Source of the DNA: Methanolinea sp.
GTDB lineage: Archaea > Halobacteriota > Methanomicrobia > Methanomicrobiales > Methanospirillaceae
Direction of reading: 5' to 3'
DNA: 63,289 bases
NCBI GenBank assembly: GCA_030055515.1
Contig: JASFYI010000002.1
Location: 1 to 63,289 of the forward strand
How positions within the stretch are numbered: position 1 is the stretch's first letter; every line of letters begins with the position of its first letter. A program made the translations under genes and the position numbers. This document shows, piece by piece, positions 56,215 through 62,236 of this stretch. Below the pieces are notes generated by a model. That model did not search any database, had not been told where the DNA came from, and saw only the letters and a program-made list of their open reading frames with translations.

Positions 56215-57147
56215 ATGATCGTCCTCCTCTCGGGGGGCACGGGAACCCCAAAGCTCGTCCAGGGACTGCGCGAGATCCTGCCCGACGAGGAGATAGGGGT
56301 CGTCGTGAACACGGCAGAGGACCTCTGGATCTCGGGCGGGTTCTGCTCCCCCGACGTCGACACGCTCCTCTACCTCTTTTCGGGGATCCTCGACTGCCGT
56401 AGGTGGTGGGGGATCGCGGGCGACACCTTCGTCACCCACGGCGAGCTCGTCAGGCTCGGCGGCGACGAGTACATCGCCATCGGTGACCGTGACAGGGCGC
56501 TCCACATCCGGAGGGGGGAGATGCTCCGCGACGGCATGACCCTCACCGAGGCGACGGCTGCCCTCTCCGCCATCCTCGGGGTCAGGGCCCGGGTACTCCC
56601 GATGGCAGACACTCCGGTCGCGACACTCGTCCGCACGAAGGGCCGAACAATCCACTTCCAGGAGTACTGGGTCCGCCACCGCGGGCAGCTGCGCGTGGAG
56701 GAGGTGATCCGGCAGTGGGACGGCCCTGCCCGTGCGACCCCCGAGGTGATCTCCACGATCCGGGAATCCGAGGGTGTCATCATCGGCCCGAGCAACCCCG
56801 TCACGAGCATCCTGCCCATCCTCGAGTGCGAGGGCGTGAAAGAAGCGCTCCGCGAGGTCCCCGTCGTCGCGGTCAGCCCCTTCGTGGGGGATGCCCCCGT
56901 GAGCGGCCCTGCCGCCGCCCTGATGCAGGCCCGCGGCTACTCCCCTGACTCGGCGGGGACCTATGCCATCTACCGCGACGTCGTGGATATCTTCGTCCAG
57001 GACGTGCGCGACAGGGTCGAAGTCCCGGGGGCGGTCAGGGCAGACACCCTCATGGCAACCCCGGCAGTCGCCCGCGAGCTCTCCTCGCTCCTCCTCTCCC
57101 TGCTCCGGGAACACGGGAAGGGATCTCCCTCCCCGGCAGACAGATAG
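56215..57147 (+). CDS. cofD: 2-phospho-L-lactate transferase CofD
   Basis: 310 residues. The GTP/substrate start is [20 protein letters not shown], followed by [40 protein letters not shown] and [13 protein letters not shown]. It joins a 2-phospholactyl group from LPPG to Fo, forming F420-0. F420 is the hydride carrier of methanogenesis, so this supports a methanogen. Upstream GGGAGG is 11 nt before ATG. Confidence 0.95.
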
Positions 57148-57192: not shown

Positions 57193-58458
57193 ATGAGCAT
57201 CTTTCGATCCCTCCGGGGGGCGCTCGGCGGCGATGCGGAGAGGGGCGCCGAGGAGGCGGAGAGGGAGCGCGTGGAGAGCGTGCGCAACGCGCTCGTGTAC
57301 GGGGACCTCGAGGCGAGGTGGAACGCGATCCGGGCGGCGGGCGAACTGGGCGACGCGTTCATCGATCCCCTCATCTCTGCCCTGAACGACGAGCACTGGA
57401 TCATCCGCCGCGGGGCCGCGCAGACCCTCGCGAAGATCGGTGCCCCCGCCGTTCCCCCGCTCATCGAGATGCTCGGCTGCGACGACGAATCGGTGAGGAG
57501 GGAGGTTGTCCAGGCGTTCCTCATGATTGGGGAGACAGCCGTCGACTCGCTCATCAGGGCACTCGGGAGGGAGCAGCTCGCGATCAGGGAGGGGGCGGCC
57601 CGGATCCTCGGCGAGATGGGCGTGCAGGCGGCGGTAGGGCCGCTCGTGGAAGCCCTGCGGGACAGCGAGCCCGCCGTGCGCCGGGAGGCTGCCGTCGCGC
57701 TGCGGAGGATTGGCCACCCCGATGCAGTCGCGCCCCTCATCCTGCTCCTCGGCGACGAGTCGGGCTTCGTCCGCATCGCCGCGGCAGAGGCGCTCTGTTC
57801 CCTCGGGGAGGTCGCGGTCGGCCCCCTCATCTCCGCTCTCGCCCATTCCAACCCCGAGATCCGCCAGCGGGCCGGACTCGCCCTCGCCGCGATCGGGACT
57901 CCCGCGGTCGAGCCCTTGATCGCGGCCCTCGGGCACGATGACCCGCTCGTCCGGCAGGGGGCGGCAGGCGTGCTCGGGAGGATCGGGGACCCCCGCGCGA
58001 TCCCGGGCCTCATCCGGATCCTCGGCGACCCCGTGAGGCGGGTCCGGCAGGAGGGCGTAAAGGCCCTCTCGTCCCTCGGACCCCCCGCGGTACCCCCGCT
58101 CGTCACCGCGTTCCGCGAGGGCGACACGGTCGTGCGGAACTGCGCGATGGAGGCACTCTGGCTCGTCGGCGCCCCCGCCATCCGGCCCCTCCTCGAGCTC
58201 CTCGAGAGTCATAATCCGGACGTGCGGAAGAGGACGGCGGTCCTCCTCGGCGAGATGGGGGATCCCGCGGCGATCGACGCCCTCGCCCGCGTCCTCGCGG
58301 ATCCCGTCCCGGCCGTGAGGAGGGAGGCCTTCGAGGCGCTCGAGAAGATCCGCAGGAGGCAGCAGGGGCCGCAGGCCCCTGCCCAGAGGGCCGAGAAGCC
58401 TGCCGCGGGAACTCCCGGCGAGGCCCAGGGCGGGAAGAAGAGGGGAGAGGACCTGTAA
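57193..58458 (+). CDS. Large HEAT-repeat protein
   Basis: 421 residues made almost wholly of about 12 HEAT/PBS-lyase repeats of 31 residues: for example RWNAIRAAGELGDAFIDPLI, WIIRRGAAQTLAKIGAPAVP, PAVRREAAVALRRIGHPDAV, PEIRQRAGLALAAIGTPAVE and PAVRREAFEALEKIRRRQQG. It starts 46 nt after cofD on the same strand. The C-terminal tail is Lys/Gly/Ala-rich and probably disordered. A protein-interaction scaffold; no partner is known from the sequence. Confidence 0.88.
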   Translation: MSIFRSLRGALGGDAERGAEEAERERVESVRNALVYGDLEARWNAIRAAGELGDAFIDPLISALNDEHWIIRRGAAQTLAKIGAPAVPPLIEMLGCDDESVRREVVQAFLMIGETAVDSLIRALGREQLAIREGAARILGEMGVQAAVGPLVEALRDSEPAVRREAAVALRRIGHPDAVAPLILLLGDESGFVRIAAAEALCSLGEVAVGPLISALAHSNPEIRQRAGLALAAIGTPAVEPLIAALGHDDPLVRQGAAGVLGRIGDPRAIPGLIRILGDPVRRVRQEGVKALSSLGPPAVPPLVTAFREGDTVVRNCAMEALWLVGAPAIRPLLELLESHNPDVRKRTAVLLGEMGDPAAIDALARVLADPVPAVRREAFEALEKIRRRQQGPQAPAQRAEKPAAGTPGEAQGGKKRGEDL

Positions 58459-58474
58459 GGTCCCATCCCACCCG

Positions 58475-59002
58475 TCACGAGAGCGAGAAGACCGCGTCGG
58501 GTGCGACGTTCTTAATCCCGACCGCCCGGACGCGCACGAGGTACTCCCCCTCGTCCCAGCCCGTGGTGTCAAACGCGAACGAGAACGACCCGCGTGCGGC
58601 CCCCTTCTCCCACGCGACGGGGACTGTGCCGGAGATCCCGGAGGCCGGGAGTCCCGGCCCTCCCTTTCGCGTCGGATGGAACGGGACGGGCGTGACCTCG
58701 ACGAGGAGGCGGGTTCCGGGCGAGAGGATCGTCTCCCCCGAGACGACGATGATATCGCCCCGCCGGTACGTCTTCCCGGGGACGAGGGGGTATGCCGCGC
58801 GCGCCTCCCCCCCTCTCTCCCCCGACGCGGTCCCGTTCGCGAGGTTATCCACGGGCCGCAGGGATTCCCCGGCGGGCGTGAGCGGCACCGGCACTCCCTC
58901 CCCCACCCCTCCCGGCTGCTCGCGCGCCGTGCAGCCCGAGAGGGCGAGCGCGAGGACCGCGAGGAGACAGGGGAGGACCCAAGGGGACCGGGAGTCTGCC
59001 AT
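58475..59002 (-). CDS. Small lipoprotein of unknown function
   Basis: About 175 residues from ATG 59002. Signal peptide PWVLPCLLAVLALALSGC with lipobox ALSGC, then a Gly/Pro-rich stretch and a beta-rich domain (YRRGDIIVVSGETILSPGTR, FAFDTTGWDEGEYLVRVRAV) like an Ig- or PEGA-type fold used in other methanogen surface proteins. The longer frame to 59083 would bury the signal peptide, so 59002 is chosen. It converges with the HEAT gene. Confidence 0.78.
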   Translation of the reverse strand: MADSRSPWVLPCLLAVLALALSGCTAREQPGGVGEGVPVPLTPAGESLRPVDNLANGTASGERGGEARAAYPLVPGKTYRRGDIIVVSGETILSPGTRLLVEVTPVPFHPTRKGGPGLPASGISGTVPVAWEKGAARGSFSFAFDTTGWDEGEYLVRVRAVGIKNVAPDAVFSLS

Positions 59003-59103: not shown

Positions 59104-59751
59104 ATGACGAGACATGAGGAGACGTCGCCGAGGGAGGAGATCGTCCTTTCCCTGAACGCGAAGTTCCCGGTCATGAAGAGGCTCTACGGCGTGAAGAAGG
59201 TGGGGATATTCGGCTCCCTCGCCCGCGGCGACATGGGGCCCGGAAGCGACGTGGACATCGAGGTCGAGTTCGAGCCGGGGATGGACACCTACGCAAACTA
59301 CATCGGGCTCGCCCTGTACCTCGAGGAACTCCTCGGCAGGCGCGTGGACCTCGTCCTCTCCCGCGTCCTCGAGCAGTACCTCCGGCCCGAGCTCGGCGCA
59401 ACGTACGCCGCGCTGAGCAGGGACAAGGTCTACCTCGGCAGGATCCTCGAGGAGATGGCGTTCCTCTCGCACCGGACGCGGGGCGTCGCACCGCGCGAAT
59501 TCCAAAAAGACGAGACGCTGCGCCGCGCGGTCGCAAGGAGCCTCGAGGTCATCGGGGAGTCTGCAGCGAGGGTCTCGGAGCAGACGCGGCAGGACGCGCC
59601 GAAGGTACCATGGAGGGAACTTGAGGGTTTACGGTCGCACCTCATCCACCCGTACTTCTCGGTGGACTGGGGCATCGTCTGGAACGTCCTGAACGTGTAC
59701 CTCCCCACGGTCGAGCCCCTCGTCCGGGCAGCGCACTCGCGCATCTCGTGA
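59104..59751 (+). CDS. MNT-HEPN fusion protein (minimal nucleotidyltransferase plus HEPN/DUF86 domain)
   Basis: 215 residues. The N-terminal 100 are a minimal nucleotidyltransferase with VGIFGSLARGDMGPGSDVDI (GSx10DxD). The C-terminal 110 are a DUF86-type HEPN domain, SLEVIGESAARVSEQTRQDA and the catalytic RSHLIHPYF, which is Rx4HxY, then VDWGIVWNVLNVYLP. In HEPN/MNT toxin-antitoxin pairs these are two separate genes in which the MNT enzyme adds AMP to the Tyr of Rx4HxY. Here both motifs look intact in a single chain with no stop between. It may be a self-neutralising fusion. No partner gene is adjacent. Confidence 0.87.
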   Translation: MTRHEETSPREEIVLSLNAKFPVMKRLYGVKKVGIFGSLARGDMGPGSDVDIEVEFEPGMDTYANYIGLALYLEELLGRRVDLVLSRVLEQYLRPELGATYAALSRDKVYLGRILEEMAFLSHRTRGVAPREFQKDETLRRAVARSLEVIGESAARVSEQTRQDAPKVPWRELEGLRSHLIHPYFSVDWGIVWNVLNVYLPTVEPLVRAAHSRIS

Positions 59752-59892: not shown

Positions 59893-60873
59893 ATGATCAC
59901 CTCGTACAACCTGTCCCCGGTCCTGCGCGAGCTCCTGGAGTTCACGGAGAGGACGCTCGGCATCGAGGTCCAGCTCGTGAGGAGGACGGACGTTCCGCCG
60001 CAGGGCCTCCTCATCGACGAGTACACGTACGGGAAGGGGAAGAACGTCATCGCCTTCTCGAGCGCCCTCCTCGGCACGCTCAAGGACTACACGATATGCC
60101 GGAACTGCATCGAGCTCCTCGCCCGCGGCTGCGCGGCGCGCCGGGGGAACTACAGGCTCCTCTCCTTCACGCGGGAGAGCGCCCTTGCCGGCTGCCGCCA
60201 GATATACCTCGACATCCTGAAGGACGAGGGGACGCGGCACATGCCCGTCTGGCGGAAGAAACAGCTCGTCTTCCTCCTCTACATGCTCTTCCACGAGGTC
60301 TTCTCCGAGATGCCCCAGAGGCTCCTCGCCGACCTCGTCATCTCCCACCGGTTCCCCCTCTTCCGGAACGCCCAGGTCTACTTCCTCCTCAAGGAGAGTA
60401 TGCGGGACATGCACGACCTCGTCCCGGTCAAGGAGTTCCTCCCCCAGCGGTACTTCGTGATGCACAACAGCATCTACTACGCCCGGGACATGCTCCTCGC
60501 CTACGTCCTCTCCGAGTACAAGCTCAACCCCGTGATCAACATCCCCGAGCTCCAGCGGTTCCGGAACCTCGACATCAAGGAGATGATGACGCACCGGTGG
60601 AGCAGGTCCCCGTGGTACCACACGAAGGTCGTCGGGGACGCCCTCTCCAACATGCTGAAGCGGACCATCACGATGGACTTCTCGATCGTCTTCTCCGAGG
60701 ATTACTTCACCAGCCTCTACATCCTCTCGACCGACATTCCCCTCCGGTGGTGGGTGATGATGGGGATGCAGGACTGGTTCACGTGGGATACCCCCGAGGC
60801 GAGGAGGGAAGTCCTCGCGGCGCAGGCATCCATCGAGAAATACGTGAAGGAGGAGATATTCGGGCCCGACTGA
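59893..60873 (+). CDS. Conserved-looking protein of unknown function
   Basis: 326 residues, mainly helical, with no signal peptide. Distinct features are ICRNCIELLARGC (three cysteines in 13 residues), AGCRQIYLDIL, a hydrophobic FLLYMLFHEVFSEMPQRLLA and a C-terminal SRSPWYHTKVVGDALSNMLK. The HEV and several paired His residues might suggest a metal site, but no standard HExxH is seen. It lies 70 nt before aspS on the same strand. The family is not recognised. Confidence 0.72.
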   Translation: MITSYNLSPVLRELLEFTERTLGIEVQLVRRTDVPPQGLLIDEYTYGKGKNVIAFSSALLGTLKDYTICRNCIELLARGCAARRGNYRLLSFTRESALAGCRQIYLDILKDEGTRHMPVWRKKQLVFLLYMLFHEVFSEMPQRLLADLVISHRFPLFRNAQVYFLLKESMRDMHDLVPVKEFLPQRYFVMHNSIYYARDMLLAYVLSEYKLNPVINIPELQRFRNLDIKEMMTHRWSRSPWYHTKVVGDALSNMLKRTITMDFSIVFSEDYFTSLYILSTDIPLRWWVMMGMQDWFTWDTPEARREVLAAQASIEKYVKEEIFGPD

Positions 60874-60943: not shown

Positions 60944-62236
60944 ATGAGGATCCCTGTAAGGGAGGTCACTCCCGACTGCGGGAGGGCCGAGGTCTGGGGA
61001 TTCGTCCACGAGGTGCGCGACCTCGGCGGTCTCGTCTTCCTCCTCGTGAGGGACCGCACGGGCATCGTCCAGGTGACGGTCCCCAAGAAGAAGGTCGCAC
61101 CGGAGATCCTCGAGGCGGCAAGGGGCGTCCCCCGCGAGTCCGTCGTCCGGGTGGCGGGAACCGTGAGGGCGATAGACAAGGCCCCCGGCGGCCGGGAGAT
61201 CGTCCCCGACCTCTTCGAGGTCATCAGCAGGAGCGAGTCCCCCCTCCCCCTCGACGTGGCCGAGAAGGTCCCGGCGGAACTCGACACGCGCCTCGACGCG
61301 CGTTTCCTCGATGCCCGGAGGCCGCGCGTCGCCGCCGTGTTCCACGTGAGGAGCGCGGTCACGCGGGCCGTGCAGGAGTACCTCTACTCCGCCGGCTTCG
61401 TGAACATCACGACGCCCAAGATCGTCGCCGCGGCGACGGAGGGCGGGACGGAACTCTTCCCGATCGCGTACTTCGAGAAGGAGGCGTTCCTCAACCAGAG
61501 CCCCCAGCTCTACAAGCAGATGATGATCGGGGCGGGGTTCGAGAAGGTCTTCGAGATCGGGCCGATCTTCCGGGCCGAGGAGCACAACACGACGAAGCAC
61601 CTCAACGAGGCGACGTCCGTCGACGTGGAGGTGGCGTACGCCGACCACCACGCCGTGATGGACCTCCTCGAGGACCTCGTGGTCACCGCCTACAGGACCG
61701 TCGAGAGGGAGTGCGGGCAGTTCCTCGAGGCGATGGAACTCGACTCCTTCACCGTCCCAAAAAAGCCGTTCCCGAGGATCTCCTACGAGGAGGCGATCGA
61801 GATCGCGAACAGGAGGTCGGGGGAGCCTGTCCGGTTCGGGGACGACATCGGGACGGCCGCGGAGAAGGCGATCGGCGAGGAGATCGGGGGACACTACTTC
61901 ATCGTGGACTGGCCGACGGCGATCAAGCCCTACTACGCGATGCCCCACGAGGATGACCCGGCCCTCTGCAAGGCGTTCGACCTCATGCACCCGCGGATGG
62001 AGCTCTCCTCGGGGGCCCAGCGCATCCACGTGCAAGACCTGCTCGTCGCCCAGATAAGGGCAAAGGGGCTCAACCCCGAGAGTTTCTCGTTCTACCTCGC
62101 GCCGTTCCGCTACGGGATGCCGCCCCACGCGGGGTGGGGCCTAGGGATGGAGAGGCTCGTGATGACGATGCTCGACCTCCAAAACATCCGCGAGGCCGTC
62201 CTCTTCCCGCGGGACAGGCACCGCCTCGTCCCCTGA
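60944..62236 (+). CDS. aspS: Aspartyl-tRNA synthetase (archaeal type)
   Basis: 430 residues. An OB-fold anticodon-binding domain (residues 1-100, with [20 protein letters not shown]) is followed by the class II core: motif 1 around [19 protein letters not shown], motif 2 [20 protein letters not shown], and motif 3 [14 protein letters not shown]. Length and motifs fit the archaeal/eukaryal AspRS, which in methanogens is usually non-discriminating and also loads tRNA-Asn; that property cannot be read from motifs alone. The next gene starts 3 nt after the stop. Confidence 0.96.

Follow-up and report, generated by a model that had tools for sequence, protein, structure and literature searches.

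The window analysed here, a stretch of 63,289 nucleotides from the genome of a Methanolinea species, encodes a protein in which an MNT nucleotidyltransferase domain is joined to a HEPN domain in a single chain. Comparison with its orthologues and with related split pairs indicates, at the level of active-site motifs, that the MNT site and the putative AMP-acceptor tyrosine of the HEPN domain are conserved together in the fused proteins while the RNase site drifts. We propose, as the probable reading, a type VII HepT/MntA pair domesticated into a single chain, which AMPylates its own HEPN tyrosine and whose RNase is silenced and dispensable.

The fused gene and its product

A first-pass annotation had reported that an MNT motif (GSx10DxD) and a HEPN motif (Rx4HxY) are both intact in one 215-residue protein. 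Both motifs were confirmed in the sequence, and the two corresponding Pfam domains were recovered with scores exceeding the curated cut-offs. The gene and its product display the following features:

59104..59751, + strand: single-chain MNT-HEPN gene, from the open reading frame and its translation; ATG start, 215 amino acids plus stop (59104-59748 without the stop)
59173..59364, + strand: MNT nucleotidyltransferase domain, residues 24-87; Pfam PF01909 (NTP_transf_2), E 1.5e-13
59212..59256, + strand: GSx10DxD motif, residues 37-51, with G37, S38, D49 and D51, from the sequence
59347..59349, + strand: D82, putative third catalytic acid of the MNT site, from the alignment
59392..59424, + strand: MNT-HEPN junction, residues 97-107, from the alignment with the starts of split HepT proteins
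59443..59727, + strand: HepT/HEPN (DUF86) domain, residues 114-208; Pfam PF01934 (HepT-like), E 7.7e-21
59557..59559, + strand: E152, invariant in split HepT
59632..59655, + strand: R177-x4-H182-x-Y184, comprising the RNase dyad R177/H182 and the predicted AMP-acceptor Y184; RSHLIHPY in the window protein

The MNT domain also recovers PDB 1wot in a phmmer search (E 4.6e-9), and a scan of the genome returns the same range, residues 114-208, for the HepT/HEPN domain. D82 is present in every row of the alignment that retains GSx10DxD, and its predicted catalytic role follows that of the nucleotidyltransferase family. The MNT domain ends at about residue 97, whereupon the first helix of the HEPN domain begins without a spacer domain. 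Within the latter, E152 is probably an RNase-site residue with a putative catalytic role. The window protein retains all of E152, R177, H182 and Y184 along with the five MNT residues, and is one of the minority of fused proteins with every residue intact. Its closest sequences, at 81% identity, come from Methanolinea metagenome-assembled genomes, and it misses the NCBIfam equivalog cut-offs of NF047752 and NF047751 (41.2 of 60 and 27 of 60 bits, respectively). The rest of the genome encodes one further intact split pair (C1:774207-774754) and the remnant of a third HepT; this remnant, at C1:773354-773536, is interrupted by an internal TAG and adjoins the intact pair.

Genomic context and vertical inheritance

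The fused gene is flanked by the following genes:

56215..57147, + strand: cofD, conserved upstream marker; Pfam PF01933, E 7.9e-48, and synteny
57193..58458, + strand: HEAT-repeat protein, from Pfam; syntenic with cofD and a conserved neighbour except in genus g15
58475..59002, - strand: lipoprotein-like gene, divergent; lipobox LSGC after MADSRSPW in the translation (start picked by eye)
59893..60873, + strand: gene for a 326-residue protein, next downstream; homologues in 74 of the 108 genomes of the family
60944..62236, + strand: aspS, class II aminoacyl-tRNA synthetase of the D/K/N type, downstream marker; Pfam PF00152, E 3.5e-88, and synteny

These genes, together with a metE-like gene, bear out the earlier statement that no partner or defence gene is adjacent, and no HepT or MNT gene lies beside the fused gene at the orthologous loci either. 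Nearly the whole of the 57193-58458 protein consists of HEAT/PBS-lyase-like repeats, and the lipoprotein-like gene, which shows a weak S-layer match, is divergent at most orthologous loci. The 326-residue protein recovered no Pfam family even at an E-value of 5 and no PDB relative; in most genera its gene separates aspS from the fused gene, and in the sister genera its homologues are found elsewhere in the genome. Promoter and terminator scans with bacterial models found nothing in this archaeal host.

A search for the same fusion in other genomes, which the first-pass annotation had recommended, showed that 33 further genomes of family f1 carry an unbroken fused frame at the equivalent chromosomal position. 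They are drawn from genera g1, g3, g8, g10, g13, g14, g15 and g16, and in one of them (G021) the gene is cut by a contig end. No stop or frameshift separates the domains in these independent sequences, each full-length orthologue being a single frame. Hence, the fusion is not a sequencing artefact. We compared 34 loci, namely those of the 33 genomes and one on a second contig of G002: 32 have cofD upstream of the fused gene and 32 have aspS downstream of it, contig ends accounting for the four gaps, and the gene orientation is identical at all 34. In genus g15 the fused gene directly precedes aspS, while in the other genera the gene for the 326-residue protein intervenes. The sister genera g7, g9 and g12 have cofD close to aspS and no fused gene there. 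This conserved synteny, taken together with the sister genera lacking the gene, points to one insertion followed by vertical descent.

An aspS species tree constructed to date the insertion left the genus-level forks unresolved and misplaced G001; therefore, the case for a single insertion draws on synteny instead. The aspS of G001 (locus L089) groups with genus g6 and not with the genus of G001 itself; another contig of that assembly carries a partial second aspS. Either gene transfer or a mixed assembly would account for this. The second copy in G002 (contig C125, L085) resembles genus g15 in both the gene and its neighbours; it probably belongs to a contaminating contig and was left out. 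The absence of the gene from G007 is uninformative, as the aspS region is unassembled in that genome.

For either domain, pairwise dN/dS values are mostly 0.03-0.25, and this extends to pairs of proteins without the RNase dyad; the fused protein is thus under purifying selection in both of its domains. The fused gene is an inherited core gene, unlike the ordinary toxin-antitoxin pairs, which are mobile. The picture of an unusual toxin-antitoxin locus given in the first-pass annotation accordingly finds no support: the gene is single-copy, syntenic and vertically inherited in eight genera, and such fusions had already been reported in PMC6393860 and PMC3710099.

A second, independent fusion

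In a phylum-wide sample of 393 genomes we found a second fused group, in family f8, with members in G363, G492, G472, G582 and G506; Pfam confirms both domains in two of these five. They form a clade inside the split pairs of family f8 (support 100/99), and a tree joining the two fused groups is rejected, with a log-likelihood lower by 97 and an AU p of 1.5e-41, which shows that the two fusions arose independently. In the closest split relatives of the f8 fusions the frames of the two genes share about 25 bases, such that a shift of one base could create the fusion. Three of the five f8 fusions share an upstream neighbour.

Other candidates were set aside. The apparent fusion of G180 (family f5) results from an ambiguous base (N) that merges two frames. 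In the fused frame of G461 the HEPN part stops before the motif and is probably degenerate, and it was excluded from the counts. Among plasmids, the matches spanning both domains are split pairs or come in two pieces, with no fused case established.

Divergent fates of the active-site residues

As a control we used 42 split pairs from the same taxonomic order, which were chosen by similarity to the window protein and may slightly favour intact motifs. GSx10DxD is present in all 42 of these pairs and Rx4HxY in 41, the exception being shortened by a stop; E152, R177, H182 and Y184 are each found in 41/41 of the complete pairs. Likewise, R, H and Y are all present in each of the seven closest split relatives of the f8 fusions in which both genes were found. 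The fused proteins were divided into those with an intact MNT site, i.e. with all five residues (n=30), and those in which it is damaged (n=8). All five MNT residues and the tyrosine are retained together in 25 of the 33 full-length orthologues of the family and in all five members of the second fusion. Indeed, whenever the MNT site is intact Y184 is present (30/30), while E152 persists in 17, R177 in 14 and H182 in 15 of these 30 proteins, and an arginine-to-lysine change is seen in 12. The dyad of R177 and H182 survives in only nine, the window protein among them. In the f8 fusions the histidine is lost in 5/5 (to S or C) and the arginine is also lost (to G) in 3/5. The first-pass annotation had named the loss of one active site in homologues as grounds for refutation; such loss is observed for the RNase site and, in some lineages, for the MNT site.

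Once the MNT site is damaged, the tyrosine is found in just one of the eight proteins (that of G024) and is replaced by R in five, F in one and P in one, with the structural invariants W170, D188 and W193 remaining in 8/8, 7/8 and 7/8, respectively. When the 106 HEPN columns are ranked by conservation, Y184 is fifth in the proteins with the MNT site and 60th in those without, and H182 ranks 77th even in the former. On a tree in which the row of the G180 artefact serves as an outgroup with intact sites, the minimum number of changes is six for R, four for H, three for Y and four for the MNT site. The MNT-damaged rows lie on long branches and the RNase-damaged g15 rows on short ones; the several changes in the RNase residues are not associated with long branches. 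MNT loss amounts to about four events, in three of which the tyrosine is lost. About four events are too few for an independent-pairs test of MNT loss against tyrosine loss to reach significance, and the link between the two rests on the pattern and its repeat in the second fusion.

These counts bear on the possibility that the members with an intact dyad, including the window protein, are live one-chain switches, in which the RNase is off at high ATP, when the tyrosine is AMPylated, and on when released by a fall in ATP, a phosphodiesterase or a nucleic acid. The window protein and eight others retain E, R, H and Y, and for a Legionella pair an on/off cycle that depends on ATP and involves de-AMPylation has been put forward (PMC11586414). 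However, most of the fused orthologues at this locus have lost R or H; the losses fall in several lineages and recur in the second fusion, which argues that the RNase is not the conserved function. Further, neither a trigger nor a partner gene is found at the locus; the ATP- or nucleic-acid-responsive switch raised in the first-pass annotation is left without direct support, and we consider this alternative unlikely.

At the same syntenic place in G130 (L102) we observed a protein with a destroyed MNT site and F in place of Y184, in which R177 and H182 are intact; judged by its motifs, it would be an RNase that has no silencer.

Neither the MNT site nor the RNase dyad survives in genera g16, g3, g13 and g14. 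The g16 proteins (L104-L107) are nevertheless under strong purifying selection (dN/dS 0.03-0.11), making them conserved pseudo-enzymes, which indicates that some role of the protein body needs neither site. It could be argued from these genera, and from the constant orientation and place upstream of aspS, that the protein is structural and non-catalytic throughout, with both sites as decaying relics and the body binding something, perhaps RNA or the product of a neighbour. Yet the retention of the five MNT residues and the tyrosine in 25/33 of the family and 5/5 of the second fusion is unexpected of pure relics, rendering such a protein very unlikely as a general explanation.

Structural comparisons

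An AlphaFold2 model of the window protein, built on seven close sequences, has a pLDDT of 76.7 and a pTM of 0.53, and is usable for the HEPN domain and for the greater part of the MNT domain. It places a helix across the junction (residues 95-125), but residues 86-98 have a pLDDT below 50 and are unusable. Given the pTM, the model does not provide the placement of the two domains relative to each other, and we make no claim on the geometry in cis. The HEPN part aligns best with HepT (VIA Z 11.1 to 7ae6 from A. flos-aquae and 10.3 to 5yep from S. oneidensis) and the MNT part with 1wot (VIA Z 9.7).

In a Foldseek search with the whole model, the antibiotic enzymes AadA, ANT(4'') and kanamycin nucleotidyltransferase appear along with chains of MNT and HepT proteins. 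This raises the alternative that the fused protein is a nucleotidyltransferase for another substrate, which its HEPN domain would bind, as is the case for kanamycin nucleotidyltransferase and AadA; fused HEPN domains without RNase residues are interpreted in this manner in PMC3710099. However, these Foldseek matches are weak (E above 0.003, and above 0.005 with an rmsd above 9 for the antibiotic enzymes) and superpose poorly at the global level. No antibiotic nucleotidyltransferase occurs among the best 50 VIA matches listed or in the Pfam hits, and the only sequence match of the window protein to this group is a sub-threshold one to ANT(4')-I at 13.9 bits. Moreover, an enzyme of this kind need not keep the acceptor tyrosine, yet it is present in 30/30 proteins with the MNT site and in 1/8 without. 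Hence, we regard another substrate as quite unlikely.

A proposed mechanism and its implications

In the two-gene systems the MNT enzyme moves AMP from ATP to the tyrosine of Rx4HxY, after which the AMP lies along the cleft leading to the RNase site (PMC7641770). In the S. oneidensis HepT, changing this tyrosine to alanine keeps toxicity and weakens neutralisation, the tyrosine being needed for full neutralisation (PMC7641770). Since the tyrosine is dispensable for toxicity, AMPylation is the best explanation for its retention where R and H have gone. The drift of the RNase site (E152/R177/H182) only after fusion, in two independent fusions and with the MNT site and tyrosine kept, favours the silencing in cis that was one of the two possibilities raised in the first-pass annotation.

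Under the self-AMPylation reading, fusion of two overlapping genes would fix enzyme and target at a ratio of one to one; every newly made HEPN domain would encounter an MNT domain, in its own chain or in the partner chain of a HEPN dimer. The MNT domain would then move AMP from ATP onto Tyr184 of the HEPN domain, blocking the neighbouring RNase cleft. Such a fused chain would have ceased to work as an addiction module. Its RNase being off for good, the RNase site would be free to decay. Selection would retain the protein and, in most lineages, the MNT-tyrosine pair, with the self-AMPylated state probably having a cellular role. From the residue patterns we infer the AMPylation of Tyr184 within the chain or dimer, the off state of the RNase and the use of the modified state. 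The fused protein is most likely self-modifying and silent as an RNase, and its self-modified state would be the useful product in most lineages.

The Legionella HEPN protein cuts RNA via Q44/E47 and not via Rx4H (PMC11586414); hence, an RNase-dead state deduced from the loss of the dyad is a prediction and not proof. The arginine-to-lysine variants may retain some RNase activity. The drift of E152, a residue likewise in helix 2, would make loss of the RNase likelier, an equivalence of E152 and E47 being conjectural.

More tentatively, and with distinctly less confidence, we suggest a toxin-free AMPylation module in which the AMP-tyrosine state of the HEPN domain is itself the signal or regulatory output, having arisen at least twice in archaea with a housekeeping function. 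If this were true, protein AMPylation borrowed from a toxin-antitoxin pair would have been put to housekeeping use, in this case beside aspS. The type VII systems rank among the most abundant prokaryotic toxin-antitoxins, and it may be asked whether their AMPylation has a use beyond the silencing of the toxin. Fusions with a decaying toxin site and a retained enzyme and target tyrosine separate the two functions in evolution, making it testable whether a modified HEPN domain is useful without its RNase. The locus offers a graded series, from the fully intact window protein to the doubly dead proteins of genus g16, and the window protein, with every residue intact, suits a test of both the silencing and the switch readings.

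Comparison with known systems

The kanamycin nucleotidyltransferase, AadA and ANT(4'') likewise combine an MNT-like domain and a helical HEPN-like domain in one chain. They differ in modifying antibiotics, and their C-terminal HEPN family is listed without Rx4-6H in the table of PMC3710099.

MNT-HEPN fusions as such are already known. That 2013 survey describes HEPN-M/DUF86 proteins as "occasionally fused to MNT" (Table 1 of PMC3710099) and notes that HEPN domains fused to MNT are typically without the RNase residues and may be domesticated. These fusions have the same two Pfam families per protein, and the accessible text describes no family, locus or fate of the acceptor tyrosine. Set against its account, the fused family described here still has R and H in 9/30 members and a tyrosine that tracks the MNT site. 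A conserved MNT-HEPN fusion "typically in house-keeping context" was reported in 2019 as the DPANN cluster cls.004259 (NEQ050; PMC6393860). As compared by description only, it shares the single chain, an unusual degree of conservation and housekeeping neighbours; it was, however, reported as DPANN-specific and was detected by HHpred (PMC6393860), whereas the present family is from methanogens. Our literature search found no account of the fused methanogen family or of tyrosine retention in fusions beyond the works cited here. As far as the literature searched shows, three things are new: the syntenic methanogen family, the second fusion with its own origin, and the different evolutionary courses of the acceptor tyrosine and the RNase residues. 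The last of these, a pattern of decay, appears to be new relative to the fusions already known.

The closest comparison is with the type VII HepT/MntA systems (Class I HEPN/MNT), such as those of S. oneidensis (SO_3166/SO_3165), A. flos-aquae and T. cleftensis. Both Pfam domains, the motifs and the order of MNT before HEPN are held in common, and the HEPN fold matches the HepT structures 7ae6, 7ae9 and 5yep; type VII HepT domains belong to PF01934, as here, or to PF08780. The fused MNT domain is too short to accommodate the additional C-terminal helix of long MNTs. The type VII systems comprise two neighbouring genes with an antitoxin acting in trans and are patchy and mobile in their distribution, whereas the fused gene is one open reading frame in all full-length orthologues and is fixed at one locus in eight genera. 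Finally, the RNase site is often lost among the orthologues of the fused family, unlike in the type VII HepT/MntA systems.
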